Assembly (NCBI GenBank): GCA_910890315.1
Contig: CAJVGD010000001.1
Location: forward strand, 2,480,001-2,544,000
DNA length: 64,000 bases
Source: Serendipita indica DSM 11827
Taxonomy: Eukaryota > Basidiomycota > Agaricomycetes > Sebacinales > Serendipitaceae
Reading direction: 5' to 3'
The position numbers and the translations under genes are program-made. Each line of letters opens with the position of its first letter. The stretch's first letter is position 1. The notes under the pieces are model-generated. The model was not told the DNA's origin. It saw nothing but the letters and a program-made list of their open reading frames with translations, and ran no database searches. Shown in pieces: positions 5,591 through 62,888 of this stretch.

Positions 5591-5881
5591 CCTATTGTTT
5601 CCCTCGTGGTCAATGAGACATAGGACAAAGTACTCGCCTGTTCTTTGTTACTTTTGCACTATGGACGCTATTCTTCATGTTCTCTCGTGAAAGGAGGTGC
5701 TAATGGACAATAGTCGACACCGTTCACCTCTGTATACGAACTCATATACTGCCCTCTTTATTCTACATTTTATCCTTCTACGGTGTCAATATCAAACTCC
5801 CGAACTGGTAGAACAGCTAGCGGAGCTTCTTGGGCCTTAACCACGACCTTTGCCGTGTAGGTTTGCAGGGTTGCTTGGTCG

Positions 5882-5896
5882 TATAAATATAAATAT
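5882..5896 (+). promoter_or_regulatory. TATA-like box upstream of B2
   Basis: TATAAATATAAATAT lies 8-22 bases before the ATG at 5904 whose codons match the B4 N-terminus. That is close for a fungal TATA element, so the true start may be further downstream. Confidence 0.35.
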
Positions 5897-5903
5897 CCAT
5901 AAT

Positions 5904-6772
5904 ATGTCAACGGAAGCCATCGATCGAGCTGTATCTTTCCTCACCACTCCGCTCTCTCATATGATCTCCCCGGCACGCTGTCTGTCCTCAGGCGTCACCT
6001 CTTTGCTTCGTTGGTCATAATCGCAGGCTCGAGCGGGAGTAAATCACCTCTCGACGACACCTTTGAGATTCATCTCCGCCTCGCCTCCTCCACTCCGCCG
6101 CCCGAGTGCATCGTGGGCGCATGTGAGGCTTCGGGCGTCGACTGGTGCAAATGGCGTTTCCTCCTCGGTGGCGGAATGGGTCTCGATCTTGATGTCACCA
6201 TTCGTCACGACGCCGTCACTGCTGGCTTCAGCCGCGCAGCAACTCCGTCGCTCGGCCGAGTCACCATTTGGCAGGAGGTATGCACCCTCCAAACAGCGAA
6301 TTGAACTCACTACATATCACAGAGTCAGCCCGAGACGAAGATTGATGCCGACGACGAAGACTTGTTCAACGAGATTAGCGATTCGCAGCAGTCGACTTCT
6401 ATGCTCTTGTATAAGCGGATGGATCAAGGACTTGCTGCATCGCAGTGGCTCAGTTTAGCCAGAACTGGGAGCAGACCTTTCATGCAATCGGACAGCGGTC
6501 ACTCTCCTACATCCTCTATCCTCTACAGAGCAAGTTCTCGGCATGCTTCCCCATCGTCGGATCCCACAATCCTACGCAACAATGCACAAACAAGACATGC
6601 AGCAGCACAACCTACCTCTCTTCCACGGCACCTGGCCTTGACCGGAGGAAGGAACAGACCGCGCTCCCATTCCGTTACGGAGAGTGATTATTCCGTTGCA
6701 TCACCCATGCTCTACATTACGAGTTCTCAATGCGCCTCTCCTTCTTTCGGACCCGTCATCGTCGATGATTGA
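5904..6772 (+). pseudogene. Truncated N-terminal copy of the B family (B2)
   Basis: The start (MSTEAIDRAVSFL) resembles the B4 start (MWQEAIEKAVSFL), and TPPPECIVGACEASGVDW matches TPPAECIAGASKTSGVDW of B4. An intron at 6278-6322 sits where B4 has its first intron. After it comes a Ser-rich stretch with one degenerate and one good copy of the family motif (PMLYITSSQCASPSFGP), then a stop at 6772. The middle and zinc-finger parts are missing; B3 begins about 200 bp downstream. The reading between 5904 and about 6030 needs an unresolved splice or frame change. Either a decayed 5' half separated from B3 by rearrangement or a short expressed paralog; I favour decay. Confidence 0.5.
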
Positions 6773-6997
6773 CCTCAAAACCTCCACCCTCATACCCATG
6801 TTTGTTGTTTGCCAGCTATGTCTCCAAAATGAATTCATCATACACTAATTTTATGTTAGGATCGCGTAGTCATGGACATCATTTCACTTCTCAACGCATT
6901 ATACGCCGAATATACCGCTATCTCGAGCTGCCAGGTATAGCTGGCTAGTAGGCGCCGTCGTCTCTTGGCTCCTTCCTCGTTTGTTCGACCGGCTGAA

Positions 6998-8882
6998 ATG
7001 GGTGATGTCGTGTCCTCTGATTATCAAGACGATACACGTATTCGACGTCACACCGTAAGCCGTACATCTACAGGTGTCACGAGTAGTCGTGACCGCCGTT
7101 CCTCTGCTCCACGGCGGCTCAACTCTACCGCAAGCGAGAATAGATCTCTCCTGCAACCCTCGACGGAGAGTGGCCACTCCTTAGTGTCTTCTATGCTCTA
7201 TATTACCACCTCACAATGCGCCTCGCCCTCGTTGGGACCGATATTCCCACCACGTAGTGACAAAAATACCAGTTTGAGACACAGGAAAGCTCTATATATT
7301 GTGAATGAAGACTTTGACAGCGGGCTCGCTTCATTGTTGCAGGACATGGTATTGTCGGAACCGCTTCCTGAACCAAGCGACATTCCTACGAGAGAACCTA
7401 TATACCAGAACGATATATTCGATCCACAGGTACTATCATATGACCTCGAACAGGAGCATCAACAAGACGCGCCGATGCGGTACCGGCGCTTCGCGTACGA
7501 TAGGGATATCACTCCTGGAGAGTGGTCTACTTTGCAAGAGGTATGCAGTGTCGCTGCAGGAACTCTAGAATCTAGGTTAATCATGGCATTCTTAGCACGT
7601 TCTTGCTCTTTGGAACGGCGATGGTGGTTTTACCCAGGCGCGGGACGCCGAGATGAAAACGCGAACTCGCGTAGATGAATGGAACGCCCGGTTCTTTAAC
7701 TCGAGGAGCATGCTCCTCGTCCTGTTCGCTGGGAACGTAGCCAAAGGTGGATCGCTCTCGGGATGGAAAGAAACAAAGATTGCTTTCAAAATTACCAACG
7801 ACTTGGGCGCTTCAACAGAAGAAGAGGATGAAAGCATCACCGACTCGGTTGATACGTCAAAACACGGGGGTGAACCATCTATGGTCCCCAATCGGTCTCG
7901 CGGCCGTGAGTTTCCACCTAGTTCTGACTCTTGGCTTACACTAGCCTAGTGCCATATGCTCTTGTTATGTACGATCTCCAACGCTCGCATCTACCACGGG
8001 CAGTCCAGGATGCTCGCGCCAGTCGAGCGCCGGGGTTCCTTCTTCCTAGGATGGGTAGTCCGCCGACACGCAAGCCGCTCCCCAAAAAAGGTTACTCGGT
8101 ACCCACAAATCCTCGTAGAGAGAAGACTGCATCTTTATCGTCCGCTGGTCCATCGACCGCACGTGGCAACGCCAAGCGCATCTTTTACTCTCTTGCCACT
8201 GATAGGGCCCGTATAAAGTGGGAGGTGGATCAAGACAAGGCCCTTTTAGATTCTCCTCCACTCTCGCTGACCGCACACTCTGGCCGTTTCTTCAACGCAT
8301 CTTCCTTTCTCCATTCTACCAAGAGAACCATCTAGAGCCACGACTCGGCTCAGAAACGGGGCGGCGGATGGCGGTCTCGTTATCACTTTCTATCCACAAT
8401 TCCATGTTCAGTCAAAACGCCATGGCCAAGTTGCGAGCAATCGATGATCCGAGCAGTGATCATGATTTGTGGGGTAGCCTTTCCCTATACTCGATACTCT
8501 ACAGGTTGGAGTCGGAGAACGTTCTCGAACCGTGCTACTACTGCTACATATGCATGCTCCAGTTCCCCAAGTCGAGCATGGACGATATGCTTGGTCACAT
8601 CCGAGAGCATTTGGGACATCGACCATATGTGTGTAATTGCCGCCAGTGTACTTCTGTGTGCAATTGTCACAAGTGTACTTCGGAATATGGGTGCGTAATG
8701 AAATGGCAGTCGGAAGATCTACTTATCCATTTCCAGAGCCTTCGCGCTTCCACTCTGAAAAGGCGCTGATACGGCACCAAGAGGAGGCTCGTCGAATGGC
8801 TGTAGGCCGCCAGGATTTCCAATCAGGTCCAAATGCGTATTTGATGCCGACATTTGAAGAGGAGTTGCGCAACTCGGATTGA
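6998..8882 (+). CDS. Tandem zinc-finger family member B3, one frame break
   Basis: Exons near 6998-7540, 7596-7905, 7950-about 8694 and about 8739-8882. It carries the motif SMLYITTSQCASPSLGP, the DPQVLSYDLEQE segment, HVLALWNGDGG, VLFAGNVAKGGSLSGW, PYALVMYDLQRS, FYQENHLEPRLGS and the C-terminal finger CYICML...GHIREHLGHRPYVC. A 27-nt insertion near 8650-8680 duplicates the CNC-x2-CTS element of the second half-finger. One base is missing near 8255 relative to B1 and B4, breaking the frame within exon 3. The last intron seems to use a donor four bases downstream of that in B1 (GTAATG instead of GTGCGT) and a CAGAG acceptor to keep frame. The start is uncertain; 6998 is the first ATG in the conserved region. 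Confidence 0.6.
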
Positions 8883-8974
8883 GATAGGACAAAGCATCCG
8901 TCTGTTCCATGTTGATTATTGCACTATGGACGCTATTATTCATATTCTTTAGTGGAAAGGAGATGCTAATGGGG

Positions 8975-9050
8975 GCATAGTCGATGGTTCCCGTGTATTT
9001 ATTTCTTCTATCGTTCAATTTTGTATATGAATTTGTATTTTGCCTTCTGT
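8975..9050 (+). repeat. 3'-flank block shared by A, B1 and B3 (copy 3)
   Basis: CATAGTCGATGGTTCC followed by GTGTATTTATTTC matches the sequence that begins at the stop codon of gene A; a weaker copy lies at 5706-5765. It marks unequal exchange or segmental duplication boundaries between the A and B units. Confidence 0.55.
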
Positions 9051-9165
9051 ATGTTCTCATCCTACGGCACCAAAGCTAGTGCTTTTAGCTAAGAGGCTGA
9101 CAAGCGACTGCTTGTTGGCGCTTCTTGAGCCTCAACCACGTTAGCGCACGTATCCCAACACAGAT

Positions 9166-11570
9166 ATGTGGCAAGAAGCCATAGAAAAAGCCGTATCTTT
9201 CCTCATAAGCCAGAGGCAAACCAACTCGTCCGCACCTAGTGTCTTTCAGCTCGCTTCCACTCCGCCGGCTGAATGCATTGCGGGCGCATCCAAGACGTCG
9301 GGCGTCGACTGGTTCAAATGGCTTTACTTCCCTGATGATGAATCATTTCACTATTTTGAAATTCTCGTTTGCATCGAGGTGGTCGTCGGGATTTTTGTTG
9401 CGTTATGTCTCAAGGTATGGCAAACATCAATTGAGCTATTTTCTTACAAATATCGCCTGACCAAGCTCAATCTGCATTATCCCCACGACTCGGAACGACC
9501 TTTCAACGTCAGCGCCTTGCAGCACTTGCCACCCTTAGTCTCGCCTCCGCCTATCAGAAGTAGTCAAGAATACGATGAACGGCGAACCTCTAATCTACAA
9601 CTATTCGAATCGACACCACACCAGGCCCTATCTTTCTTACTAGCTTCGAGGGAGAGTGGCAACTCTCTTGGCTCTGTACTCCGTGCGAACAGGTCCCATG
9701 GTCCTGACCCCTTGCGCAGACGCAGGTTACCGGGTACGCACAGTTTACCGAGTAATGGCGTATATGTCAATTCGACAAGGCATACAGCAACGCAACGCAT
9801 TTCTCTTCCACAGCGACTAGTCTCGGCCCGAAGTGGGAACGGAACGCGTCCCCACTCTACGACTGAGAGTAATTATTCCGTTGTCTCCTCGATGCTCTGT
9901 ATCACTACCTCTCAATGCGCCTCTCCCTCGTTTGGACCAATATCACTGCCGCGTAGTGAGAGGAATACCAGTTCGACGACACAAATGACGTCATTATCGA
10001 TTGTAGGCAAGGAGATTTACAGCGGGCACGCTCCAATATTGCAGGATATAGCATCGTCTGAGCCTCTCCCTGATCCAGAGGACATTCCTACAAGACGACC
10101 CCGATGCAAGAATGGTGTATTCGATCCACAAGTGCTATCTTATGATCTCGAACAGGAAAGTCGGCAAGATGCGCCTATCCTCGGTGGATGCTTCGCCTCC
10201 GATAGGGATATCACTCCTGAAGAGTGGTCTACTTTACGAGCGGTACGTAGTATAGCTACAAAAACCTAGAACGCGGGCTAATATTATTATTCTTAGCACG
10301 TACTTGCTCTTTGGGCTGGAAAGGGTAGTCTGACGCGGGCGGGGAATGCTGAGATGGAAATGCAAACTCGCGTAGATGAATGGAATACCCGTTTCTTTAG
10401 CTCGAGGGGTATGCTCCTTGTGCTGTTCGCTGGAAACATAGCCAAAGGCGGGTCACTTTCAGGATTCAAAGAAACGCGGATTGCTTTCAAAACAATTTGC
10501 GACCAAGAACCTTTCTCTGAAGAAGAGAATGTGGTCATCATCGACTCGGCTGATCGCTCCGAAGCCAGTGTCAAACCATCTTGGATCCGCAACCGCTCCC
10601 GGAGTGAGTTTACATCTAGTTCTGACATCTTTCCTAACCCAGCCTAGTACCATACGCTCTCGTCATGTACGACTTACATCACACGCATCTACCACTGGCA
10701 ATACAGGATGCTCGCGTCAGCCAAGCACCAGGGTGCTCTCTTCCTTGTATGGTTTCCAAATCCGCGCCGACGCCGCTGCCCAACGCGTCAAACAACGTGC
10801 CAAACAACGCGCCAACAGAGTCCTATCGAGAGACCAACGTTACAACCAAACACACTGGAGAGATGGCTGCGCCGATCTCGTCCACTGTTCCATTGACCGC
10901 ACGCGCCAACGCTGAGCACATTTTTTACTCCCTTCTGACCGATAGAACTCGTCTCTGCTGGGAGGTGGATGTCAACCTGGCACTCCCAGATTCTGGTATC
11001 GCACTCGTCGACCACGCGCTCCAGCCGTTTCTTGAAAGCATCTTCTGGACCATGTTTTACCAAGAGAACCATCTCGAGCCACGACTCGGTTCGCAAACGG
11101 GGCGTCGGCTGGTGAAACCTACGTTGAGTCTCAGCTCGGCGTTGAGTCGAAACGTCGCGGCCATGCTGCGACTGGTTGATGATCCGAGCAGTGACCGTAG
11201 TAACCCTTCCATATATTCAGTACTCTACAGGTTGGAGTCTGAGAATATTTCGGAACCATGTTACTACTGTTACATATGCATGCTCCAGTTCCCCAGGTCG
11301 AGCATGGACGATATGCTAGGCCACATCCGGGAGCACTTGGGTCATCGACCGTATGTCTGCAATTGCCGCAGATGTACTTCGAAAACTCGGTGCGTAATGA
11401 AGTAAAAGTCGGAAGACGACTGATCTATTGCTAGTGCTTCGCACTTCCACTCTGAAAAGGCACTGATACGGCACCAAGAGGAGACTCGTCGGATTGCTGT
11501 AGGCCGCCAAGACTTCCAGTCAGGTCCAAATGCATATTCGATGCGAAAATTTGAAGAGGTGTTGGAATGA
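9166..11570 (+). CDS. Tandem zinc-finger family member B4, intact, 736 aa
   Basis: The only intact full-length B copy. Exons 9166-9414, 9466-10242, 10297-10603, 10648-11389 and 11435-11570 sum to 2211 nt. Exon 1 (83 codons) ends with a hydrophobic segment at residues 64-82 (FEILVCIEVVVGIFVALCL) that could be a membrane anchor. Next come a Ser/Arg-rich region with the motif SMLCITTSQCASPSFGP, the conserved middle block (HVLALWAGKGS, VLFAGNIAKGGSLSGF), a variable Pro/Asn-rich insert, FYQENHLEPRLGSQTGR, then finger C-x2-C-x14-H-x3-H with linker LGHRPYVC and a second half-finger with CRRC and HSEKALIRH across a phase-2 intron. The first intron is 51 nt, so its retention would keep frame. Function unknown; a membrane-tethered metal-binding protein is inference. 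Confidence 0.75.
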
Positions 11571-27582: not shown

Positions 27583-27707
27583 GACATGGAGCGTGGCATA
27601 CTGTACACGGTGGCACGCAGCTGATAGCTCACTTTCTCTGGACTTAGTCTTTTGCTAATCTTCATTTGACTTTTACATACTGGTGCCTAAACTCTGACTT
27701 CGACTCC

Positions 27708-29060
27708 ATGCCCATTTCTCTTCCGTCCGACGTTCTCGGAGAGGTCTTTGCATGGTATGGTCTCTCCGAGGATCTATACCATCCATTGGAGACGCTTCTC
27801 CTCGTCTCTCGATCCTGGCACGACACGGCGCTGCTCAACAGAGGTATCTGGGCCCGCTTCAACATTGAAGTCGGGCATCTCAAGTCGATGGATATATGGA
27901 AAACGCGACTTCAGCGGCGTCTGGACCGCATAGGGCCGACAACGTTACTGGACATTCGCATTCGTAACGTCTGCAGTATCCCGAATCACCCTTGCGCCTC
28001 AGAATATCTCAACGAGAACGTCCTCAAAGGAAACGAACGGTCATCAGCAGTCATTCTCAATGCCTGTTCAGTCCGATACTTTATGATTGAGATTCTCAAA
28101 GATTTCAATGGCCATAAAGGATCGTTAGCCAAGAGGTGGCGTTCACTCCATCTATGTTTCGGTAACCAAGAATGGATCTATAAACACGCTGGATGGGTGG
28201 ATCACTTAGGCTTCGCATTAGATGCACTCTTTTACCCGACCCCGGCACTCGAAACCCTCACATTTGGATATCTCAATCCAAGTGGCGACAGTCGACGAAA
28301 AAATCCCTTTCTACCCTTCTCGCCAAACCTTCGGACGTGTACTCTCTCCAATTACCCTTTTTCGTCCTACCCCGACATGTCCGCCGCGCGAGAAGTCACC
28401 ATCATTCGCACTGTACACCAGGGCAGACATACGAAGCATCCCATGATCCCACTCGGCAATGCCGTTGAGAAACTCGTTCTCGGTTTGACGGCTAATGACG
28501 GGTGCACGTTGCCAGCCTCTTTACCGCGACTCAGGAATGTAGAGATTGGCAGAGATGGACTGTGGTGTAATCTCGACAGCGTACAAGCGCCTCTTTTGTC
28601 CCAGGTGACGCTACGGATACAGGGCCGCCGCTTCCTTTTCACCATCTTTTCCCGTGTCTCTTTCCTCTCCACCGTCACACACTTGACCATCCTCGACGAG
28701 GTATCAGCGCTCACCATAGACACCCACAAATTTACCCTCTGCCTCATCCTACAATCGATACTGTCTCTCGTTCACCTAGAGGCCGACAAATCCGCGTTGG
28801 AAGGGATACTGGGACTCGTAAGGGATTCCAGAGATGGTTCTATGAACCCTGGCGGGACTATTGGCAAAGTCGACCCTACCGACTGTCCTTTTTCATGCCG
28901 ACGCGTCTGCGTCTCGTGTGTAGAAAAACGGGGAGATGCAGAGATTTCATCTGACATGGATTCTTGGACGGCATTCTTTCGAATTTTGCGTACCTCGACC
29001 ATGTATACCCAGAACCCTGATATTGCGGACATGATTGAAGGCTTGGAGCGTCCGCAGTAG
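27708..29060 (+). CDS. F-box protein H1, 450 aa
   Basis: Single exon. Residues 1-50 form an F-box-like domain (LPSDVLGEVFAWYGLSED, PLETLLLVSRSWHDTAL, IWARFNIEVG); the rest lacks clear repeats but keeps blocks shared with H2-H4, such as LLDIRIRNV, RWRSLHLCFG, YPTPALETLTF, SPNLRTCTLSNY, AAREVTII, VTHLTILDEVSAL and a C-terminal QNPDIADMIEGL. F-box proteins usually recruit substrates to SCF ubiquitin ligases. Start 27708 chosen because the four paralogs share MP-I/V-LP-D there and a CTAA-CTCT leader just upstream. First of four tandem copies. Confidence 0.8.
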   Translation: MPISLPSDVLGEVFAWYGLSEDLYHPLETLLLVSRSWHDTALLNRGIWARFNIEVGHLKSMDIWKTRLQRRLDRIGPTTLLDIRIRNVCSIPNHPCASEYLNENVLKGNERSSAVILNACSVRYFMIEILKDFNGHKGSLAKRWRSLHLCFGNQEWIYKHAGWVDHLGFALDALFYPTPALETLTFGYLNPSGDSRRKNPFLPFSPNLRTCTLSNYPFSSYPDMSAAREVTIIRTVHQGRHTKHPMIPLGNAVEKLVLGLTANDGCTLPASLPRLRNVEIGRDGLWCNLDSVQAPLLSQVTLRIQGRRFLFTIFSRVSFLSTVTHLTILDEVSALTIDTHKFTLCLILQSILSLVHLEADKSALEGILGLVRDSRDGSMNPGGTIGKVDPTDCPFSCRRVCVSCVEKRGDAEISSDMDSWTAFFRILRTSTMYTQNPDIADMIEGLERPQ

Positions 29061-29283
29061 CCATATATACTTCGATGCTATGAATAGCAGTGCATATTGC
29101 GTCCAGTGAAAGCTGAACAACGCTCGATGGAGGTGACCATCGACTCGTAAGGACGCTTGGAGGTGGCTATTCAGGATTCAAGCCGGATTACCGATAATCT
29201 GATATCTGAATGTATCCAATCGCCCCTTCCTATTGTTGCCATGTGTTCTAACTCGGCGTCTAAACTCTAACTTGGACTACCCC

Positions 29284-30639
29284 ATGGTCACCTCCCTTCC
29301 CTGCGATGTTCTCGGAGAAATATTCGCACATTATGCTCTCTCCGAGGACTTATTTCATCCATTAGAGACACTTCTCCTCGTCTCTCGATTCTGGCATGAA
29401 GCGGCACTAATCTACGGAGAAATATGGGCCACTTTCAACATCGAAATCGGGAATTATAAGTCTATTCACATATGGAGAACCCGCCTTGGACGTCGTTTGG
29501 CTCGTGTGGGACCGACGAGGCTGCTGGACATTACCATTCGCAACGTCTATAGTGTGCCGAATCATCCATCTGCCTCAGACTTTCTGAATGGGAACAGAAT
29601 GAATCAAAAAGAACCCATTTCTAATCTCTCCCACAATATATATCAAGTCCGACATTTCATGCTCGACTTTCTCCAGGACCTCAATGGCCGTGACGGCTCT
29701 TTGACCTGGAGGTGGCGGTCTCTTCATCTGTATTTTGGTGACCATCCGTGGAACTACGACAGGGGTAGTAGCAGCGAGGTGACGCGGTTCTCATGGAAGG
29801 TCCTCTCCTACCCAACCCCCGCGCTCGAATCCCTCACGCTCGAGTATATCGAGACAAATGGCAATGACAGACGACGGCGGCATCCTCTTCTCCCATTCTC
29901 ACCCAACCTTCGGACGTGTACTCTCTCCGAGTACTCTTTCTCCTTTTACCCCGACATCTCGGCCGCGCGAGAAGTAACCATCATCCATCCACGACATCTA
30001 CAGAATACTACGAATCGCCCTAGAATCAAGCTCGGTATGGCCGTCGAGAAACTTGTTCTTGGTCTCCCATTCAACGGCGAGTGGACGTTACCACAGACGC
30101 TCCCTCAACTTAGGAGTATAGAAGTTGGAAAAGGTGGCCCGCAGTGCAATCTCGAAGATCTCAAAGCACCGCATCTGACTCAAGCAACCCTACGAATCCA
30201 AAACGCATTCTTTCTCCCAAACACTCTCTTAAAGGTCTCCTTCCTTTCCGCCGTCACGCATCTAACGATCCTCGACGAGGCGTCAACACTCATCCTCCCC
30301 GCCCCACGACTCTCCATCTCGCGTATCCTGAGCGCGATACTCTCCCTTGTTCACCTACGTACCAACGAAGCGGCTTTGCGTGGCGTTTTAGCACTCGTCA
30401 AGGATTCAAGAAGTCCTCAGACAAACCCAGACGGGACATTTGGCGACGTCGATCTCAGCACCTGTCCTTTTCAGCTCCGACGCTTGCGTGTGTCGTGTGT
30501 AGACTTTGAGGGGGACGCGGAGATTTCGTCGGACATGGATTCATGGGTAGCAGTGTTTCGACTTCTACGTGCCTCGACACTGTATACGCAGAATCCCGAC
30601 ATTGCGAAGATGATTGAAGGTTTGACCTCCCTCTCGTAG
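29284..30639 (+). CDS. F-box protein H2, 451 aa
   Basis: Single exon. F-box-like N-terminus (LPCDVLGEIFAHYALSED, PLETLLLVSRFWHEAAL) and the shared body blocks: LLDITIRNVYSVPNHP, FLQDLNGRDGSL, WRWRSLHLYFGDHPW, YPTPALESLTLEYIET, FYPDISAAREVTIIHP, AVEKLVLGLPFNGEW, AEISSDMDSW and the ending QNPDIAKMIEGLTSLS. Start at 29284 aligns with the starts of H1 and H3. Closest to H3 and H4 in wording. Probably an SCF adaptor; substrate unknown. Confidence 0.8.
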   Translation: MVTSLPCDVLGEIFAHYALSEDLFHPLETLLLVSRFWHEAALIYGEIWATFNIEIGNYKSIHIWRTRLGRRLARVGPTRLLDITIRNVYSVPNHPSASDFLNGNRMNQKEPISNLSHNIYQVRHFMLDFLQDLNGRDGSLTWRWRSLHLYFGDHPWNYDRGSSSEVTRFSWKVLSYPTPALESLTLEYIETNGNDRRRRHPLLPFSPNLRTCTLSEYSFSFYPDISAAREVTIIHPRHLQNTTNRPRIKLGMAVEKLVLGLPFNGEWTLPQTLPQLRSIEVGKGGPQCNLEDLKAPHLTQATLRIQNAFFLPNTLLKVSFLSAVTHLTILDEASTLILPAPRLSISRILSAILSLVHLRTNEAALRGVLALVKDSRSPQTNPDGTFGDVDLSTCPFQLRRLRVSCVDFEGDAEISSDMDSWVAVFRLLRASTLYTQNPDIAKMIEGLTSLS

Positions 30640-31613
30640 CCTCGTACTTTATCTGGTATTCGATTCAATATTACTTATATCTGATTGCGTCGAGCGAGGG
30701 TCAAGATAGTTGAAGAATTGATTTGGGCGGACTAGCCCGGCAACGTTCACGGCGACAAGGAGTTTATGGCCGTCCTCTCTCAACTCGACGCTAATAGAGT
30801 CGGCTCCCAAAAAGATGGCGGCAGGCATGTCCCTCGCCGCTCTTGGTCGTTTATTATTCCTGGGTATGGCTTGAGCGTGGTTGAATCGCTGGTACTTTCC
30901 ATACGGCTCAGCTCAGCGTCTAATCTCTGAACCTTGGATCAATCCCACATGCCCATCTCCCTTCCCCCTGACTTGCTTGGAGAGATATTCGGGTACTATG
31001 CTATCTCAGAGGACTTGAAGTATCCGTTAGAGACGCTTCTCCTCGTTTCCCGCTCATGGCACGAAGCCGCGCGAATCCATGGAGGGATTTGGGCCAGCTT
31101 CAACATCGAACTCGGAAATTACAAGTCGATTGATTTATGGAGGACTCGTCTTCCACGTCGCTTATCCCTCGCGGGCCCAACGAGGCCACTAGACATTACT
31201 GTCCGTAACGTCTACAGCATTTCTGGTCACCCTTTTGCCTCAGAGTTCCTGAGCCGGAAAGACTATAATCAATCAGAATCACCAGAACAATTGGCCCGCG
31301 GCGTCTATCAGGTTCGGCACTTTATGCTGGACTTACTTCAGGACCTCAATGGTCGGGACGGTTCCTTGGCGTGGAGATGGCGTTCACTTCACCTATACTT
31401 TGGCGACCATCCATGGACCTATAGCACAGGGAATAACAGTGGTGTGACCCGCTTCTCGTGGAAGGTGCTATCCCACCAGACCCCTGCCCTCGAATTCCTG
31501 ACACTTGAAAACATTGAAACAAACGGCACCGATCGAAAATGGCGATATCCACTGCTTCCCTATTGTCCCAAACTTCGAACGTGTACCCTCGTCAATTACT
31601 CGTTTTCATTTTA

Positions 31614-31700
31614 TGGCTGTTTCCGTTCAGGTTGGCGCGAGTCAATTTACACTGCCACCTATGTTGAGTGGCCTGTAGCTCTTCCCCACATTATCAGAGG
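31614..31700 (+). repeat. Left terminal inverted repeat of the transposon
   Basis: Begins TGGCTGTTTCCGTTCAGG directly after the TA duplication. Pairs with the reverse complement of 35279-35365: the outer 26 bp carry one mismatch, the inner part matches in patches (CCAC-TATGTTGAG, then CTCC/TTCC and CCAC). Confidence 0.85.
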
Positions 31701-31976
31701 GCAAATAATATTATATCATTAGAATCACTTGATATGGGTCTACCTTTTGTGAGTACTTTAGGCCTGCATTTCAAACGTGGGATGATTGTCACATTTGGTC
31801 ACGTCCTAGAGTATTCCCTTGTGTTTGGCAGTAGTGTTTAGTATATGATATTGGAAGTAAATAACTGTATGCTTATGTGGAATGACAGGTTTGTGGTTTA
31901 CTGGATGTGGGAAGGTTCGACGTCGTTCCAAAAATTTCGACTCTTGGACCCTATTAGTACTATCAGTCTGCCCTCA

Positions 31977-33810
31977 ATGCCCCCAAAGAAGGCTCGAAAC
32001 ACCGTAAAAGCATCAAATATGGTCGCATCTTCTGCTACTGTACTCTCCAAGCGAGGCCTGTCGGCGCAGGTGCTTCAGATCACGCAGACACCTCGTGAAA
32101 CTCGGTCATCTCGTCAAAAGATCAATATTGATCCTTTGAAGAGTTTCAATAAACCTATAAGAGAAGTGCCTGGTGAGTCAGACGTCATGAAGATACAGGA
32201 GAATGCTCACCATGAAGTTTGCACTGTACCTGCAGTCATTCTCCAAAGGAATCATCAGCTCCCATCGGTCAGAGAGGAAGAACATAGTGATTGTCTGACT
32301 CCCAAGGGCATACCTGCCTCGAAAGGTGGGATCCATGTGCAGCCCAAGGTGTACAAGACAAGCGTAGAATCACTAGAAGATGACATAGATGAAAAGGATG
32401 AAAACTCTGATAACCATCCTGACCTGTATGAGACTGCAAGCGAAGAAGGGGAGACAGCTATGGACCATGCATGGTTCCAGCCACCTTCCTTATCAGACAC
32501 GTCGAGTGGGATAGAAGAGTTCGTTTTTCAACAGAGAACGGGTCGCCATAAGCTGAAAAAGAACACAACTGACCAGCTAAACCTGGCAAATAGCACTGGT
32601 GCGTTTGATTTAAGAGTGTTAACTACATTAACAAGATGAGATTTAGCTTTTGAAGTCACTATCTGGTTCGTTTTTCAACGCCGCGAGGTGTTGGTCGCAG
32701 TCGAGAGCACGGATGACTATGTTGCTGTCAAACGAGCACTTGGACTTGCCATAGGCATTGAAGCTCGTGATTTACGCCCACTACAGTACAAAATTGAGAA
32801 GGATCGCAACCAGTCAGCATTCAGGGACTTCAACTCGCAGAGAGATTGGGAGCATATCATTACCTGGGCTCGCAAATATCGACAGTACCAGCTAAATCGA
32901 AAAAATGGGACACCAAATGAGTGGTCCGTCCGGATCAGAGAAGCAAGCGGCAGCAAGGCAGGGTTCAAGGTGTGTAATTGGTACTATATTGAGCTCGTTC
33001 ACAACTAATATGACAATTAGGCTGGGAGTACTAGTCATGATCGCAAAAAGAACATAGAGAATATGAGTAAAATAATCAATGCGCCGCGTTTGCAGGCCTC
33101 AAAGGAACTTGCCCAGGCTCGTCAATGCAACCAGCATGGTGGCAAATACTGCTGGGTCCCTTGTGGAGGCGATACTGCAGCTTTAACATCCTATGGAATA
33201 AACCTCAAGGCCAATCTTCACATCCAAATCACTGATTCCGAGTTTGAGATGTGGCTTGATGAAGTGGTATGTATTGACTGATTGAGTATTACTCCTTAAT
33301 TGATATTTAATTCTATAGCTTGCAAATAATGCTACAGTTCGCTCTCCTGGTACTCTCCTTGCCAGGCAAATTGCCCGCCGCTATTCCCAAATGCTTGCAA
33401 AAAAGGCTGAGCTATCTCAACCTGTTCCATCAGCCACTAATTCATTCGAAACACCTCGTTTTGCTCGCACATTTACAGCACTTGGTCCACCAACACCTCA
33501 ACGATTCCTTGCCCGCTCTCAGTCTGTGCCTATTTCTGGCGAGTTAGGTCCATCTGAGAGTAATCGCAGGAGACCTATTGGTTCTGGGAAGAGGCATATT
33601 CCCATAAACGAGTGGCTGGCATCACTCAGAGGGCGTATTGAGGGTGATAACACCAACTATCAGGCACTTTTGCAGCCGCTCTTAGCAGAAGATATACAAA
33701 GTACATTAGAGATCTGTCTCTTGGGTAAAGAGGGTCTTGTTGGTATTGGCGGCATTGCCAAGGGGACTGCTGCACGACTTGAGGCCTGGGCCCGTGAGGA
33801 TACTGGTTAG
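31977..33810 (+). CDS. Transposon passenger protein, 560 aa, unknown function
   Basis: Exons 31977-32598, 32647-32969, 33021-33266 and 33319-33810 sum to 1683 nt without internal stops. Order: about 200 disordered residues starting MPPKKARN; a folded-looking segment FEVTIWFVFQRREVLVAVES to ARKYRQYQ, which may be ubiquitin-like or PB1-like; a Cys/His cluster C-x2-H-x5-C-x3-C (CNQHGGKYCWVPC); a coiled or linker region; and a C-terminal segment (INEWLASLRGRIEG to ARLEAWARED) that resembles a SAM domain. I recall similar UBL-plus-CxxH proteins as dispersed hypothetical families in agaricomycetes, but cannot confirm. Not a recognised transposase. It may help transposition, bind DNA, or be captured cargo. 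Confidence 0.75.
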
Positions 33811-33874
33811 AAAATTGGATCCAAGACACACGTAGTATCAATATAGCATCATTTTCTGTATATATCAACTGAAT

Positions 33875-35046
33875 CTACACAATCCCTGCTCGTGCAAACC
33901 ATGCATATGCCATCCGAGGAGTTGGGTAGAATGCCATCTCATACAGTAGCCAGCGAGCCTGATTTGGGTTATTATTGTCATTCCATGATTCCTTAGCTTC
34001 CTCCATATGTCGCCGAATCCATGCTTTCATCCCTGCAAAGCATAATTCGATTGGATTCAGGTCGGGCGAGTATGGTGGAAGGAACTCAATTCGCATACCA
34101 CTGTACCAGAATCAGTGAACAATTTTATTTTATATGCTCTATACATACCGTTGCTGAACCATCTGGATCATTTCTGGGTCTTTGTGAATCCGGCAATTGT
34201 CGAGAATGATCACAGAGTTTGGAGGATGGTGCTCTGGATCATATTTGTTCATCTTCTCGAGCAATTCTGCAATAAACTGATTAAATGTTTCCATATTGAA
34301 TGCATCCTCCACGACTTTGACATGGAGAACACCCGAAAGGGAAAGTGCTGGTAGAACAGAGTAACTGAACAATTAGACTGCGAAGTAGAGATTGCACAAT
34401 GCTCACCTTTTTCCTCTCAAGAAGAATACCTTCTGAAGTGCTCGCTGTCCCCGGAAAGCCCAAGCACGGGTACGTTGGCTTGTACGCTGATCAAAGCGAG
34501 ATTCATCAACATAGACTCGTTCATGGGGTTTGTAGCGTGAGATTCTATTGAAATATTCAGCTCGACGGTCTATATCTTGCTCTCGGGCTGCCTTGGTAAC
34601 CTATAATCATAAGTCCCAATACGAAGGCAAGGACTTGGACATGCCTCTTTCATTGTAAGCCCAGCCTTGCGTAAGGATCGATGAATAGTACTGAGAGAGA
34701 CCAAAACACCCATCCCAGCAAGCAATTCTGCTCGTATTTCATCTAAGTACATGTCCGGCCGTTGCTGAACAAGTCCTAAAATAAACTGGATTTTATGAGC
34801 TGCTGACAGGGTATTAGGGCGAAGACAGACCTGAATACAATCATCTGTCATTTTCCGAGGCGAGCCACGACGTTGAGACTTGTTAGAGATGATTTTCTGA
34901 TCAGAGTGCACTGTTGCAATGATACGCTGGACTGAGCGCCTTCCAATCCCCAGATAGCGTGAAATAGTCTTCGTATCAAGCCTTTCAAGATGCATCTTGA
35001 CCACCGCATGGCGAAGGTCATTTGAGATGGGCCGTCCGCGCGTCAT
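33875..35046 (-). CDS. Tc1-like DD34E transposase, 330 aa, five exons
   Basis: Minus strand; exons 34831-35046, 34645-34785, 34407-34600, 34149-34364 and 33875-34100 sum to 993 nt. The N-terminus is a helix-turn-helix (RHAVVKMHLERLDTKTISRYL, GIGRRSVQRI) with a second HTH-like part (LSTIHRSLRKAGLTMKE). The DDE catalytic triad appears in VYVDESRFD, VIILDNCRIH and YSPDLNPIE, with 34 residues between the second Asp and the Glu once the 48-nt intron is removed. The third intron (34601-34644) begins with GC instead of GT, the only way found to keep frame. The intron 34786-34830 is 45 nt without a stop, so it could also be read through. Cuts and pastes the element at TA. Confidence 0.9.
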
Positions 35047-35278
35047 GGTCCGGTCCAAGATATGAATGACACGACGGCGACGTGAGTTATGCTAATGGAC
35101 TGATTAATAACACTGTCAGTTGTTTTCTTCAAGTAAGATTCTCACGTCAATGCAATGTGGGCAAGCAATAGAGGACGTCCAAAAGTGGGCCATTCTACCA
35201 CATTTGATTTTTGCGGCTAAAGTACACCAAACAGAAAGCTTCAACTCTTACGAATATCAGTATTAAGTATCGCTGCAC

Positions 35279-35365
35279 TACGACAACGTGGGGAGGAGAT
35301 AGGGGCTGCTCAACATATGTGGCTATGTAAAATTCAAAACGCGCCAACCTGAGCGGAAACAGCCA
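35279..35365 (-). repeat. Right terminal inverted repeat of the transposon
   Basis: Ends CCTGAGCGGAAACAGCCA immediately before the right TA duplication; the reverse complement of the left end. Confidence 0.85.
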
Positions 35366-36212
35366 TACCCGGACATCTCGGCCGCAAGTCGCGTAGCCAT
35401 CATTCATCCGCAGCACCTGCAAAACACTACAAAACGACCTTTGGTCCCACTTGGTAAAGGTGTGGAAAAGCTCATTCTCGGTTTCCCATTCAATGGCGAA
35501 TGGAAGATACCAAACTATCTACCCCGACTGTGGAGTATAGAGCTGGGTGGAGACGGTCCACGATGTCATCTCCAAAGCGTACAGGCACCCAATCTGTCCC
35601 ACGCCACGCTACGGATACAGAGCGCCTCCTTTCTTCCAACTGTCCTCTCTCACGTCGCTTTCCTCTCCACCATCACCCATTTGACCATCCTCGAGGAAGA
35701 AGCCGCGTTTTTATCAACGCAGCGACGTATCGCATACCGTCTGCTGAGCGCAATGCTCTCTCTTGTTGAAGTGCGGACGAATGAGCCAGGGTTGCGGGGG
35801 ATATTACTACTGGTGAGGGATGCACGAAACCAAAAAACGAATGTGGATATGATTACTGGAGAAGTAGAACTCAGCACGTGTCCCTTTCAGCTCCGACGTG
35901 TCCGTGTGTCTTGCGTGGACTGCGAGGGAGACGTAGAGATTTCGTCGGATATGGATTCCTGGGAAGTCGCCCTTCAGATTCTGCGCAGCTCATCGCTAGC
36001 TACACAGAATCCGCATATCGCAAAGATGATCGAAGGGTTGGCCACTTAGTTGCAGCCTTTTATTCCCATGTACAAGCCGATTTGACTCGGGTTGATAGAA
36101 ACTTGAGTAAAGAAACGGTTTATCCAGTGCAAATTCAATCGGAAACAACCCTCAATTCTCAACGCTTGCTTGCTAGCCGCCATCTAATACTCTAATCTCG
36201 ACCACGCCCGCG

Positions 36213-37558
36213 ATGCCCATCTATATTCCTTGCGATGTTCTGGGAAGTATATTCGCATACTATGCCCCCTCCGAGGACCTATTTCATCCACTAGAGACGC
36301 TTCTTCTCGTCTCTCGATCCTGGAACGAAGCGGCACTGCTGCATGGAGACATTTAGGCCAATTTCAATATCGAAATTGGAAATTAAAATTTGATTTATAT
36401 ATGGAATAGCCGTCTGCGACGTCGCCTGGCACGCACAGCACCAACGAGGCCGCTGGACATTACCATCCGCAACGTCTACGGAATCCTTGGACATCCACTC
36501 TCTGCGGACCGCCGGAAACGAGGGCTTTATAGTAATAGATCCCGGAACCAAGCAACGGACTTCAGAAACTACGAGGTCCGACGTTGTACGCTCAAGTTTC
36601 TTCAACTATTCAGCAGTCGCAACGGCTCCTTTATACGGAGATGACGCTCACTTGATCTATATTTTGGAGATCATCCATGTAACTACGGCCGTCGCTTGTC
36701 ATGGGCGATGCTCTTCTATCCGACCCCTGCCCTCGAATCCCTTACACTCGAGTATGTTAAGACGAATCGCAATGATGAGCGAAGACGACGACAAAGTATG
36801 CGACGACGGGGACTGCTTCCTTTCTCGCCCAAGCTTCAAACATGCACCCTCATACAATCGTTTCTTCTCTACTACCCAGACATTTCAGCGGCGCAGGAGG
36901 TCACCATCGTTCATCCACGAAACCTCGCTGCTGCTCTACCAATGATTGAGCTGGGTATGGCTGTTGAAAAGCTCGCCCTCAGTTTGCCGTTCCGTGGACG
37001 CTGGACGTGGCCCGACTCTCTACCACAGCTTAGGATTGTAGATGTTTGGAACTATGGTCCTCAGTGCAACTTTGAAACTGTGCAGGCTCCTCATCTATAC
37101 CAAGCCACGCTACGGATGCAAAACGTTTTCTGGATTCCCGAAGTCCTCCCTCATACTTCCTTCTTCTCTACTGCCACAGACTTGGCGGTTCTGGACGAGA
37201 TCTTTCTGCTTGTTGAAGCATCCCAAAGACTCGCATTCTCACACTTCCTCAGTGGGGTGCTTTCTCTTGTTCACCTACGTGCTAACGAGGTAGCCCTGCG
37301 CGAGATCCTGATCCTCGTCAGGACTCGAGGAATTGGCAGGCGAACCAGGACCGGACTCCTGGTAGCGTCGGTCTTCATTCTTGCCCTTTTCGACTCCGAC
37401 GCGTACGTGTTTCGTGTGTAGATCTAGAAGGGGATGTAGAAAGTTCTTCGGATATGGACTCGTTACTTGCTGTCTTTTGTATTCTACGCGCATCAACGCT
37501 ATGTACTAAGAATCCCCATATCGCGAGGATGGTCGAGGGATTGACTCTTCTACCGTAG
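36213..37558 (+). pseudogene. F-box gene H4, decayed
   Basis: Fourth tandem copy. The F-box start is good (CDVLGSIFAYYAPSED, PLETLLLVSRSWNEAAL), but an in-frame TAG near 36354 replaces the conserved Trp of IWANFN and a TAA follows near 36384. Later parts change frame: around 36500-36720 and again near 37320, after which the shared C-terminus (VRVSCVDLEGDVE, NPHIARMVEGLTLLP) continues in another frame to 37558. Long intact stretches in between suggest fairly recent loss. Confidence 0.8.
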
Positions 37559-37822
37559 TAGTATCATCTTCGCTTTATTTGGTTTAATGTTTATATTATC
37601 TGTCTGAGGTCGCTGAACAACAGAGGAATGAATATTTAAATCTCCTGGCCGTCGAGAAGACAAAAGGGGAGCGAGATTTCGAAGGCCCGAACCAATCTCC
37701 AAGCCATTTACACGTATTATTGGACTCTCAAAGGACATAGTACATGTGCCTTCCGTTGGACCCGCTCCTGAAGTGCGGTGGGAGCTAGCAGCATATACAA
37801 CATATGATATCATAGCCTTACT

Positions 37823-44559: not shown

Positions 44560-45725
44560 ATGCAGCTTACATTCACGAATATCGTCGCTGTATTTGCCCT
44601 GGTGGCGACTGCCGTCTCTGCCTCGTCGGAGCATATCAACCCAGGCCACAAACGGATGGCACGGCGTATCAGCAGAAAGGCCCTCGCTGCTCGCCATCAC
44701 CCGCACTCGCATGTCACCGTCTACCAGACAATTACTTCCGATCCAGCTACTTCTACTACCCGTCCAACTGTAGTTACCGAATATGTCACTTTTACCACCA
44801 CGCCAGCAGACTCGGCATCCTCTACAGACGCTCCTTCTACGACCGAGACACCGTCCTCGACCGAATCTCCCTCTGAGACGGTCACAGAGTCGTCTTCTTC
44901 CTCGTCGGCCAGCCAGCCAGCAAACTCGGCTGGTCCAGTCATTCAAGCCACTGGAAGCCCATGCGGTGATCCAAATGCCACCCGTACGTTGCTAAGTTTA
45001 GACTACTTTTTTTTGACTGACGTGGCGCCGCAGCGGATCCCGCCCCCACGTCCGGACCAAACGGCTCTGAGAGTGAGTAGTACACTGTTGCTAGCGTACA
45101 CCCTTCTAACTGTACACAGACTGGCTCAACTGTGGTGTCGACGGTGACGGTTGGATCCCTCCACCAGTCACGCTCCAGAACATTGTCTACAAGGACCTGG
45201 CCACTGTCCTCCAAAAGCCAGGAAACGTCTTTGAAGCCTGCGCACCTTACCTCAACATTTTCCAATCTCTGGCTGACGAAACCGGCATCCCCACCATCCT
45301 CTTGGCTTCCATCGCCCTCCAAGAAAGCGGATGCAGACCCGGCGTTACGGGTGGTGCCGGTGAGATTGGCATGATGCAAATCACGAGCGAAAAGTGCCCT
45401 ACCGATGGCTCCAACTGCTATGATCCTGCGACCAACATTGGCATTGGTGCTCGCTACATGAAGTCGAGGATTGACGCCAACGACGGCAATGTCGCCGCCG
45501 GTATGGGCGAGTACAACGGATGGCGACGTGGGTTGACTGTTGCGGCTGCCAACAACTATGCCATTTGCGCGCAGCACAACAATCTCGGTATGTTTGCGTT
45601 GCGTGAGTTTGCAGTCCGCTCTGACCACATTCTGTATAGATTACCTCCACCGCGTCTTCAACGGCTACATCCAAGGCATCGACCCCCACACGCTCAACAT
45701 GGGCATCTACTTCAACACGTGCTAG
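44560..45725 (+). CDS. Secreted lysozyme-like (transglycosylase-fold) protein, 338 aa
   Basis: Exons 44560-44983, 45034-45072, 45120-45587 and 45640-45725 sum to 1017 nt. Signal peptide MQLTFTNIVAVFALVATAVSA, then a His/Arg-rich bit with a possible Kex2-type basic site (KRMARR), a Ser/Thr-rich linker that would be O-glycosylated, and a C-terminal lysozyme-superfamily domain: ASIALQESGCR with the likely catalytic Glu, GEIGMMQIT, NIGIGARYM, GMGEYNGW. These are the hallmarks of SLT/goose-type lysozyme folds (GH23-like). Likely cuts peptidoglycan or a chitin-like polymer outside the cell; the substrate is inference. Confidence 0.85.
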
Positions 45726-47250
45726 AATCGCCATTCTCTGCGATCCACTGCATCAATAGATACCCAGACCCGACCACCCTTTTGTTCACTGTAGCATCAT
45801 CCCCCTTTTGTCGACATCGGATACCTCTTTTGGACCCCCTTTTTTGCTCTCTTCCTCCTCTCCTCATCCCCAGCTTTTAGGCGTATCACCGCCCCCAATA
45901 AAACCATTTACGACTCCTCGCGTCCGACCACGGACGACGACTCTTACGTTTCGACATTCCACTGGCTGGACAGTGGCGGACTGGGCTTCATCCCGACCCC
46001 GCGCACTTTTCTTCCATCAGGGTTTGCAGGTGGTTGGGAAATGCAGGCTAACGATTCCGCCTGCCTGCATTTCCACTTGACAATCACCACAATCACCCGC
46101 AAACTCCCCCAATCGCGTCCTCTGATACTTCCGCCCGTTCAGCTCTTTCACGCTATCACGCTCGCTCACGACTCTCACGTCGTCTTTTTTTTCTTGGTTG
46201 TATCCTTTTAGAGGGCGAACTCTAAACTCGGAAAAGCACAATGACCAACTTTGCTCTCACATCCCTCTACTCGTCTTGTTGGCGGGCCGTTCGGGGTTGA
46301 GTAGCATGATGTACCTAGTCAAACAATACACACTAGCCTTGGAATCTGCATTTCACGATACGTAAAGCCGTTAGAGCAACTAATAAGAATAAACGGTCTT
46401 TGTGATTGTGGCATCAACTACAGCGACAAGCGAAAACTATGACAAGAACGCTCGCCCCGTTTGGTTGGCTTCTACGGATTCTGTAAAGCACGGAGAGAGT
46501 CGAGTCCGCAAAACAAAAGGAGAGCGAGATATCAGAGACGAATTCGTATTACAGAAAATACTCGGCGTCCTTTTTGTTGTCCGTTTCGTTTTTTGGGGGG
46601 AAGGATGCTGGGTGAGAAGTGGAAGCGCATATTGAACTGGATTGAGAAACACGGAGGGGGAAATTTTCCAACCGAGGAGGATGAGAACAATGTTGCGAGC
46701 TAGGTAGTCGAGCATGGGACGAAATTCCCAAGGCGCAGATTCCCTCGCGTCGGGAAAAGTTCGTCGTGCTATCAAGTGTCCGTGCACTGGATGTTTGGAC
46801 TACAACTACTAGTGGTAAAAAGGATCAAGTGTTCGAATAGGGCCAGGTGGGATAGCCAAATAGACGCGAATCACGCGAGAGACGACGGGCCCGTACCCAG
46901 GCAGTATGTTTCGTGGAGAAATCTAGCACTATAGCGTGCGCCTCCAACGATCACCAATGTATCCAAGGAAAAGAGACGAGGGACAGAGAGAGAGAGAGAT
47001 GGGAATAGAGACGAGACTGTAAAGGAGGGTGGTCAGCGCAGAAGAGTATGCGCTGTGTAGACTGTTTGGGTATACACGAAAGGGCCGCAGAGAAGAAAAA
47101 AAGATGAATTCCTCTTTGATGTATTGCGGGAAGAGCATTGTCCAGGTTCAATGATGTAAACGGATATCGAGAATACAATGGTGGGGATCACGGATCACCT
47201 AGAATAAACAAGCGATCAGATCTAGAACACCCAGCTCCGTAAAGGCCAAC
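45726..47250. other. Convergent intergenic, no gene seen
   Basis: 3' sides of the lysozyme-like gene and of gene P. Only short frames. A GAGAGAGAGAGAGA run lies near 46987-47000. Poly-pyrimidine stretches occur around 45830-45900 and 46180. Confidence 0.45.
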
Positions 47251-61226: not shown

Positions 61227-62888
61227 ATGAGCTGGCAGAGATTGCCCGAGGACATTCAGCACGAGATTCTCTGTTACTTGGACCCGCCACAACTGGTGGA
61301 AGCGCGGGAGGTGCGCCTCATTTCTCGTCTCAGTCGTGTTCTCACAACCAGACAGATTGACCGCAATACTCAGTCGCTGATCGACTCCTCAAAGCGAACA
61401 CAGCTGATTATTGAGCTCTGGAGGTCAGGTTTTTCACTGGCAGGCGACATAAATCGTCTTTCCCCGGTGGCAGACGTCTTGAAAAGACATCTGGCATGGC
61501 GAGAAAATGTCATACGTCTTCCAGATCCGAAGCGTATCGACTTTCCATCTAGTCCGGACGCAGTCGAAAGGCTGTTCGTCTTCGACGATTGCATCTTCGT
61601 GAAAGCTTTGGACGAATTATATTCGCTCTCCATTCGCAAGCTCGCTAAATCGGGCTCCGCAGAATGGAAGTTGATAAAAGTGGACGGGTTTACCATCAAT
61701 GATGTTATTTTCGCCCACCTTGCGACAAATGTCCTCGTGGTAGGAATGACCCTGGACAATTCCATGTATGTGTTCGACTTGGCTCCCGGACGAAATCTCA
61801 GGGGTTTCAAGGAACCAAGAACTCCTCTTTCTTAGTTTGGATACACTCTCCCAAATCCCAGGCACTCCACGACTTTCGATGGAGAAAATTTACAACATTG
61901 GAGTTTCCGGGTCGACGCTTATCTTTGTCGACGATACTGAAGGCTACATGCTACGAGCTATGAACTGGCAGAAAGGGGATATCATCAAGGTGAGAGGTGC
62001 TGTTGCGTCTATAGACTCGCTCATTTGTTGTAGGAGATGGACCTGGGGAATATGTACCAAGCGTCTTATTGTCCGGCCTTACTGGCCGGGCACTACTTAC
62101 TGTTGTCATTTGTTGAACGGTCAGAGATGATCATCTCAGTGACCAATCTGTACAACCCCGAGACTTCTGTCTCCTTCCATCTTCCGCGCCTTGGTCGGTT
62201 CTTTTCAGTGTCGAGCTTCTCTTGGTTGACGCAGGATAATCAATTCGGGGCTGGCATCCTCTCCTCGACTGAAATTCACGATATCTGCGTCCTCATTATC
62301 TCTCTGGAGCCAAAATTGAAGGGCATAGCCAGTCAAGAGATTACACTTGTGCTCAAGTACAACAAGCTCTTCCACTTTGCTGCTGAAACGGGCAAAAGCC
62401 ACCTCAGCTGGTCTGAATGGGGGCCAACGTGCGCGCGTTTTCTTCCAGCATATCAAGAAGCAGCCCTGGAAGGTGCCCTCTTCTGCTCACGAGTTCACCT
62501 TTACTTATCAGACCGTATTGTCTCACCGCCCACTACTCGTCGAGGGCACAGGACTAAGTCCCCTCGACGGGTTGCGACGCTCGAATTTAATCCGAGCATG
62601 ACTTCCCGCTGTTCTGGGAGATCATTTCATGTGATAAAAGGGAAACTCTATGACCGACTGTTCTCAGAGGTCTTCCTGTTTCCGGAAGAAGCCTTGGAGG
62701 GAGTGCCATTCACCGTACTCGACCAACCCCTGGGAGTATTACCTGAGCAGCCCACGGCAGATATTCTTCTTGCATGTTCATCCATTGTCGTAGACAAAGT
62801 GAGTGTAAATTTCTTTCTGTGAAAACAACCTACTTAATCCCGGGAGGTTGATCACCTGGACGTCTTCTGGTTGGGAGAACCGTGTTGA
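61227..62888 (+). CDS. F-box protein M1, 492 aa
   Basis: Exons 61227-61310, 61356-61765, 61812-61989, 62034-62798 and 62847-62888 sum to 1479 nt. N-terminal F-box (MSWQRLPEDIQHEILCYLDP). The body keeps blocks shared with L1, L2 and M2: RHLAWRENVIRLPDP, RLFVFDDCIFVKAL, ELYSLSIRKLA, FLSLDTLSQIPG, LLAGHYLLLSFVERSEMI, HLSWSEWGPTCARFLP. The repeated short hydrophobic strands suggest a beta-propeller-like body, which is inference. Intron 1 (45 nt) is placed by comparison with M2 and lacks a stop, so it could be retained. The last short exon is less sure; without it the protein stops at 62822. Confidence 0.75.

Follow-up and report, generated by a model that had tools for sequence, protein, structure and literature searches.

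The sequence analysed here (hereafter the window) is a 64,000-nt stretch of the genome of Serendipita indica DSM 11827. At 31614–35365 it contains a transposable element of 3,752 bp that splits a host gene and carries two convergent genes, called A (the transposase gene) and B below. The features of the locus, in window coordinates, are as follows.

30931–36049 (halves 30931–31613 and 35366–36049), plus strand: F-box-type host gene, interrupted by the element; joined frame open
31612–31613, no strand: left TA target-site duplication; the empty site matches paralogues
31614–35365, no strand: whole element, 3,752 bp; flanked by TA, with inverted ends; host frame restored when the flanks are joined
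31614–31639, plus strand: left outer inverted repeat, near-perfect
31640–31867, plus strand: left imperfect inner inverted repeat, aligned to 35117–35339
31977–33810, plus strand: gene B, 560 aa; exons 31977–32598, 32647–32969, 33021–33266 and 33319–33810 (stop included)
33811–33874, no strand: 64-bp spacer separating the convergent stop codons
33875–35046, minus strand: gene A, DD34E transposase, 330 aa; exons 35046–34831, 34785–34645, 34600–34407, 34364–34149 and 34100–33875 (stop included)
35117–35339, minus strand: right imperfect inner inverted repeat, aligned to 31640–31867
35340–35365, minus strand: right outer inverted repeat, near-perfect
35366–35367, no strand: right TA target-site duplication

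When the element and one TA were removed, the flanks (30931–31613 and 35368–36049) formed a single open frame with no internal stop. The joined flanks aligned over the junction with all three of the paralogues tried, at 110/144, 70/87 and 75/103 identical columns (gap columns left out of the counts); the best of them, with 110 of 144 aligned columns identical, was the gene at 29203–30639. Because the flanks form an open frame and match paralogues over the junction, the insertion is genuine and the element borders are exact. The TA duplications and inverted ends claimed in the initial annotation were both found, and the restored empty site matches the paralogues. Since the remainder of the broken host gene is still open, the insertion looks fairly recent.

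The first half of the host gene resembled the Pfam F-box-like family at E 7.6e-05 (22.8 bits, just under the curated cut-off of 24.3). The paralogue ORF at 27648–29057 had no Pfam match at E ≤ 0.01, so the F-box label for the array comes from a single match. The array extends over 27648–37561 and consists of at least four F-box-type paralogues in tandem (27648–29060, 29203–30639, the split gene at 30931–36049 and a fourth from near 36208), the third of which harbours the element.

With the TA included, the outer arms of the element (31612–31639 and 35340–35367) form a 28-nt pair with 96% complementarity; a second inverted pair in the ends, of 58 nt, is 76% complementary. The near-perfect 28-bp ends continue as an imperfect inverted repeat of about 250 bp, which reaches to about 31867 on the left and 35117 on the right. 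The inner repeats (228 and 223 nt) are identical in 160 of 203 aligned columns, plus gaps. Their local alignment score was 116 (maximum of 500 dinucleotide shuffles, 53), and the innermost stretch alone scored 67 (at most 49 in shuffles). The element thus ends in terminal inverted repeats and is flanked by a TA target-site duplication, as are Tc1/mariner elements. The duplication in Mutator elements (MuDR) is about 9 bp; TA was the only duplication seen at the borders here. A search of the ends for direct repeats of at least 11 nt did not reveal an IR/DR-type arrangement, the left end having one 16-nt pair at 75% and the right end none. With up to three mismatches allowed, the end motif had no further site in the window beyond the two ends (chance expectation 0.00). 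Within the 28-bp ends, CAGGTTGG is present at 31628–31635 and 35344–35351, and we take it to resemble the outer end of some mariner elements. Despite this mariner-like motif inside the ends, the true border is the outer TA, because this is what the empty site shows.

Gene A is identified as an IS630/Tc1-type DD34E transposase by its matches to DDE_3, HTH_32, PAX and IS630. In Pfam, DDE_3 was matched at E 1.2e-28. HTH_32 (36.9 bits, cut-off 33.7) and PAX (24.1, cut-off 22) indicate the N-terminal paired-like helix–turn–helix that is characteristic of Tc1/mariner transposases; HTH_SB, at 26.1, stayed under its cut-off of 43. The IS630 transposase model was matched at E 1.3e-46. The predicted catalytic triad consists of D151, D239 and E274, and the 34 residues that separate the last two give the DD34E spacing. 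No MULE-type transposase, as found in Mutator elements, was recognised: MULE models were absent from the Pfam hits of A, and B had no Pfam hit at all.

The five-exon, 330-aa structure proposed for the transposase in the initial annotation is correct. A four-exon reading of 345 aa was rejected, since removal of a 45-nt intron raised the IS630 score from 151.5 to 159.4 bits and the HTH_32 score from 22.8 to 36.9. When compared by sequence with the PDB, the 345-aa reading matched SETMAR (E 0.0069) and Sleeping Beauty (E 0.29). Gene A has four introns, one of which is GC-AG (34601–34644). Its first intron (34786–34830) has a GTCTGT donor and a length that is a multiple of three; its retention would leave the frame intact and lengthen the protein by 15 residues.

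The convergent second gene claimed earlier, with four exons, 560 aa and a stop codon 64 bp from that of the transposase gene, was likewise borne out. The three introns of gene B are all GT-AG and measure 48, 51 and 52 nt. Using a permissive splice grammar (donors GTNNGT; up to three introns, each of 42–60 nt), we obtained a longest spliced frame of 604 aa on the plus strand, whereas 60 dinucleotide shuffles never exceeded 173 aa. On the minus strand the grammar yielded no more than 158 aa, since it allows neither the four introns of gene A nor two of their four donors; with gene A missed in this way, support for that gene comes from the family matches instead. In all four exons of gene B, the proposed frame scored best of six with codon usage taken from seven window ORFs. 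B has no family match beyond chance, as might be expected if it were a mere chain of open stretches and not a real gene. Against this stand its 560 codons with three GT-AG introns, the shuffles, the frame scores of the four exons and a CpG pattern that is specific to codon position (see below), and we consider it highly improbable that B is not a gene. The borders, the inverted ends and the two open frames support, for this copy, the view that the locus is a single transposon carrying both genes intact.

We searched for relatives of gene B in several collections. Pfam (whole protein and three pieces) and NCBIfam gave no match, a comparison by sequence with the PDB gave chance-level matches only, and PHROGs gave a single chance-level match (E 0.29). 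In Pfam, NCBIfam and PHROGs, where B had no family match beyond chance, it was not recognisable as a recombinase or zinc-finger accessory ORF of the kind known from the ciliate elements Tec and TBE. Scans of viral contigs (for B and the 345-aa reading of A) and of prokaryote genomes (for exon 4 of B and the 330-aa A) found no relatives; both scans reach close relatives only and are uninformative on fungi. An additional copy of protein A or B was not present in the window (best other match, E 0.60). Neither an RNA family at gathering score nor a tRNA was found.

The following regions of gene B were considered separately.

32649–32969, plus strand: exon 2; low-confidence strand-strand-helix-strand-strand-helix order, ubiquitin/PB1-like guess, mean pLDDT 54.4
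33021–33266, plus strand: exon 3; Cys/His/Trp-rich stretch, evident from the sequence itself
33568–33807, plus strand: C-terminal helical region; SAM-like guess, mean pLDDT 47.3

Exon 2 and the C-terminus were folded without an alignment, and a Foldseek search with the predicted folds gave no match at E ≤ 0.001. The ubiquitin/PB1-like reading of exon 2 and the SAM-like reading of the C-terminus are therefore offered as guesses from the models, prompted in part by a presumed likeness of gene B to uncharacterised mushroom proteins. That the Cys/His/Trp-rich exon 3 might bind metal is a guess from its residues. The N-terminus is basic and then acidic in composition and, judged from this composition, is probably disordered.

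To describe the base composition of the element, we compared it with the remainder of the window. The ratio of observed to expected CpG (o/e) was 0.70 for the element, 0.63 for the B gene and 0.79 for the A gene; 211 overlapping segments of element size elsewhere gave 0.85–1.15. TpG and CpA were raised in the element. The loss of CpG is uneven at the ends (o/e 0.57 left, 0.95 right), and the non-coding parts of the element contain 30 CpG compared with 43.0 expected.

Within the coding regions, the depletion depends on codon position. For positions 1-2, 2-3 and 3-1, CpG o/e was 1.17, 0.40 and 0.47 in B and 1.86, 0.42 and 0.33 in A; the corresponding values for 15 pooled window ORFs were 1.06, 1.06 and 0.99. 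Depletion in A and B is thus confined to positions 2-3 and 3-1, where synonymous change can remove CpG, and position 1-2 (arginine CGN) is not depleted in either gene. We redrew the codons for the same proteins from window codon usage. At synonymous sites, A has 13 CpG compared with 42.7 expected (0.30 of expectation) and B has 31 compared with 86.6 (0.36), and for each gene none of 2000 simulations was as low. CGN arginine codons were near expectation (A, 32 vs 28.4; B, 30 vs 33.2). When synonymous codons were permuted within each gene, CpG across codon boundaries was also reduced (A, 6 vs 17.1; B, 18 vs 35.2; 0/2000 as low in each case). As a control, 14 of the 15 window ORFs were tested singly, the joined F-box-type ORF being left out, and their synonymous CpG was 0.66–1.29 of expectation. 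The lowest of these controls was the ORF at 62034–62819 (0.66).

The two genes are also alike in GC3, which was 0.436 in A and 0.441 in B; it was 0.483–0.705 in the 15 window ORFs, which are unannotated stop-to-stop frames, two of them overlapping and some possibly including non-coding ends. Among blocks of window ORF codons from the 15-ORF set, GC3 was as low as in A in 79 of 5266 and as low as in B in 0 of 5036; low GC3 is less striking for A than for B. A comparison set of 12 ORFs, from which the low-GC3 ORFs 19712, 9145 and 26959 were omitted, gave 0/2000 blocks as low for both A and B, and the 15-ORF figures are preferred. Twelve of the 15 comparison ORFs were scanned whole against Pfam, and eight of these had no match at E ≤ 0.01.

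The simplest reading of the CpG pattern would be that, in both genes, methylation-type decay was filtered by selection at the protein level. The initial annotation had taken the two intact frames to argue for selection or recent capture. Of these, long residence under selection is favoured by the CpG pattern, whereas recent capture of an ordinary host gene is disfavoured, because in B, as in A, synonymous CpG was lost but CGN arginine was kept. Alternatively, the pattern could stem from a CpG-avoiding donor genome; B, like A, would then still be under protein-level constraint there. On balance, we favour the interpretation that B is an old, selected accessory component of a complete cut-and-paste Tc1/mariner-type transposon inserted in the F-box-type array, and we regard this as somewhat better than an even bet. 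Counting against it are the uneven CpG loss at the two ends, the use of unannotated frames as comparison ORFs, and the failure to match B to a known domain or, at E ≤ 0.001, to a known fold. The evidence on the history of B, which is what is new here, comes from a single copy of the element.

Two other origins of B have to be weighed against this interpretation. B could be a host gene without a role in transposition that a single copy of an otherwise one-gene Tc1 element took up as cargo. Two points would fit cargo: most Tc1/mariner elements have a transposase only, and no DNA-binding or recombinase domain was recognised in B. However, in base composition and in synonymous CpG loss B goes with the transposase gene and departs from the window ORFs; the rest of the window holds no relative of B at E below 0.9; and the remaining inverted pairs in the region are of 17–19 nt, none of them framing gene B. 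Cargo therefore appears rather unlikely to us. B might instead come from another mobile element, or from a CpG-poor genome, and have been joined to a Tc1 transposase later, in which case the CpG signature would predate the union and be silent on the role of B. Any methylated transposon is expected to lose CpG, and the span of B is indeed more depleted than that of A when whole-gene o/e is compared. This difference does not extend to synonymous sites, at which depletion is similar in the two genes, and no inner border was seen, there being only short inverted pairs besides the ends and no tandem repeat inside the element. We consider such a composite origin improbable.

The TA duplication, inverted ends, paired-like helix–turn–helix with DDE_3, and DD34E spacing of the element are those of Tc1/mariner DD34E elements, from which it differs by its convergent second gene, its length of 3.75 kb and its imperfect inverted ends of about 250 bp. 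A single gene in about 1.3–2.5 kb is typical for Tc1/mariner elements, not defining; here two genes lie in 3,752 bp.

The ciliate elements Tec and TBE qualify the statement in the initial annotation that a transposase is normally the only gene of a Tc1/mariner element. Within PMC7325037 and PMC2836289, these are described as Tc1/mariner elements with a DD34E transposase and three ORFs, and purifying selection has been reported for the TBE ORFs. As described there, Tec resembles the present element in combining a DD34E transposase with extra ORFs, one of them in the complement, and in having long inverted ends; it differs in its site-specific recombinase and its ends of about 700 bp, and B matched no recombinase model. 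TBE differs in carrying a zinc finger protein, and B matched no zinc-finger model. Also described within these papers is a fungal Tc1/mariner consensus, TremE of Paracoccidioides, with two ORFs of 335 and 217 aa in 1,883 bp and 42-bp ends. We suspect that its two ORFs are a split transposase and not a transposase plus a second gene, because their lengths sum to about that of one sister-element transposase (525–559 aa).

For MuDR, pogo and MarorTcMar-18 we rely on excerpts from among PMC9674265, PMC8290104, PMC10512250, PMC7386202, PMC3440606 and PMC8224964. In these, MuDR of maize is described as having two convergent genes, for a transposase and a second protein, with inverted ends of about 200–215 bp that act as promoters; for mudrB, one paper says that it is required for integration and the other that its function is unknown. 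The present element resembles MuDR, as far as the excerpts describe it, in having two convergent genes that start just inside matching ends, here on a Tc1 chassis. It differs in transposase superfamily and target duplication; the likeness is one of gene layout, and a promoter role of the ends would be by analogy. The pogo superfamily of fungi and animals is described as 1.20–5.20 kb long with one or two ORFs encoding transposases, unlike the present element, where the transposase is Tc1-type DD34E and no CENP-B domain was matched. MarorTcMar-18 of Marasmius oreades is likewise a Mariner-type family of a basidiomycete, with a length of 3,972 bp; the new insertion that the excerpt describes is a 1,120-bp version without protein domains. 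Given Tec, TBE, pogo and TremE, a Tc1/mariner element with additional ORFs is nothing new in kind. A fungal Tc1/mariner element with a convergent, intron-bearing partner of the 560-aa type was not among the matches listed in open-licence titles and abstract beginnings (Repbase excluded), and an earlier description is possible.

A Tc1-family transposase cuts and pastes its element at TA. By the action of its family, the 330-aa DD34E transposase would bind the inverted ends, excise the element and reinsert it at TA; here the element has entered a TA inside one gene of the tandem F-box-type array. The synonymous CpG loss would reflect cytosine methylation of the element, and selection would have kept the B protein working. 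B, read inward from the opposite end, may be an accessory protein that aids transposition, like mudrB of MuDR. We think of B as an accessory part by analogy with MuDR, not by homology. As to what it might do, we think it most likely that B is a nuclear scaffold or regulator that aids complex assembly or insertion, or one that counters host silencing; we can only guess between the two, and hold each on its own to be possible yet doubtful. Equally tentative is the broader proposal of a fungal Tc1 lineage with a conserved second gene that is read inward in the fashion of MuDR and is needed for insertion or for shielding from methylation-based silencing.

The general view is that Tc1/mariner transposases work without an element-encoded partner. 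If B has long been kept under selection, the element would be a test case for the contribution of a second protein, be it to insertion, to the assembly of the complex or to escaping silencing. A lineage with a conserved second gene, if true, would be an accessory system, of which none was found described for Tc1/mariner outside ciliates among the matches listed in the open-licence literature. The single-copy CpG test, in which synonymous CpG is lost and arginine CpG is kept, could be used on other suspected transposon passenger genes that have no second copy.

Elsewhere in the window, another gene family is present as three diverged tandem copies (3796–11564) with a Cys/His-rich stretch, for example CYYCYICMLQFPRSSMDDMLGHIREH in the third copy. 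In the ORF at 45110–45877, Pfam recognised a lytic transglycosylase SLT domain (E 9.2e-13), a domain best known from bacteria.
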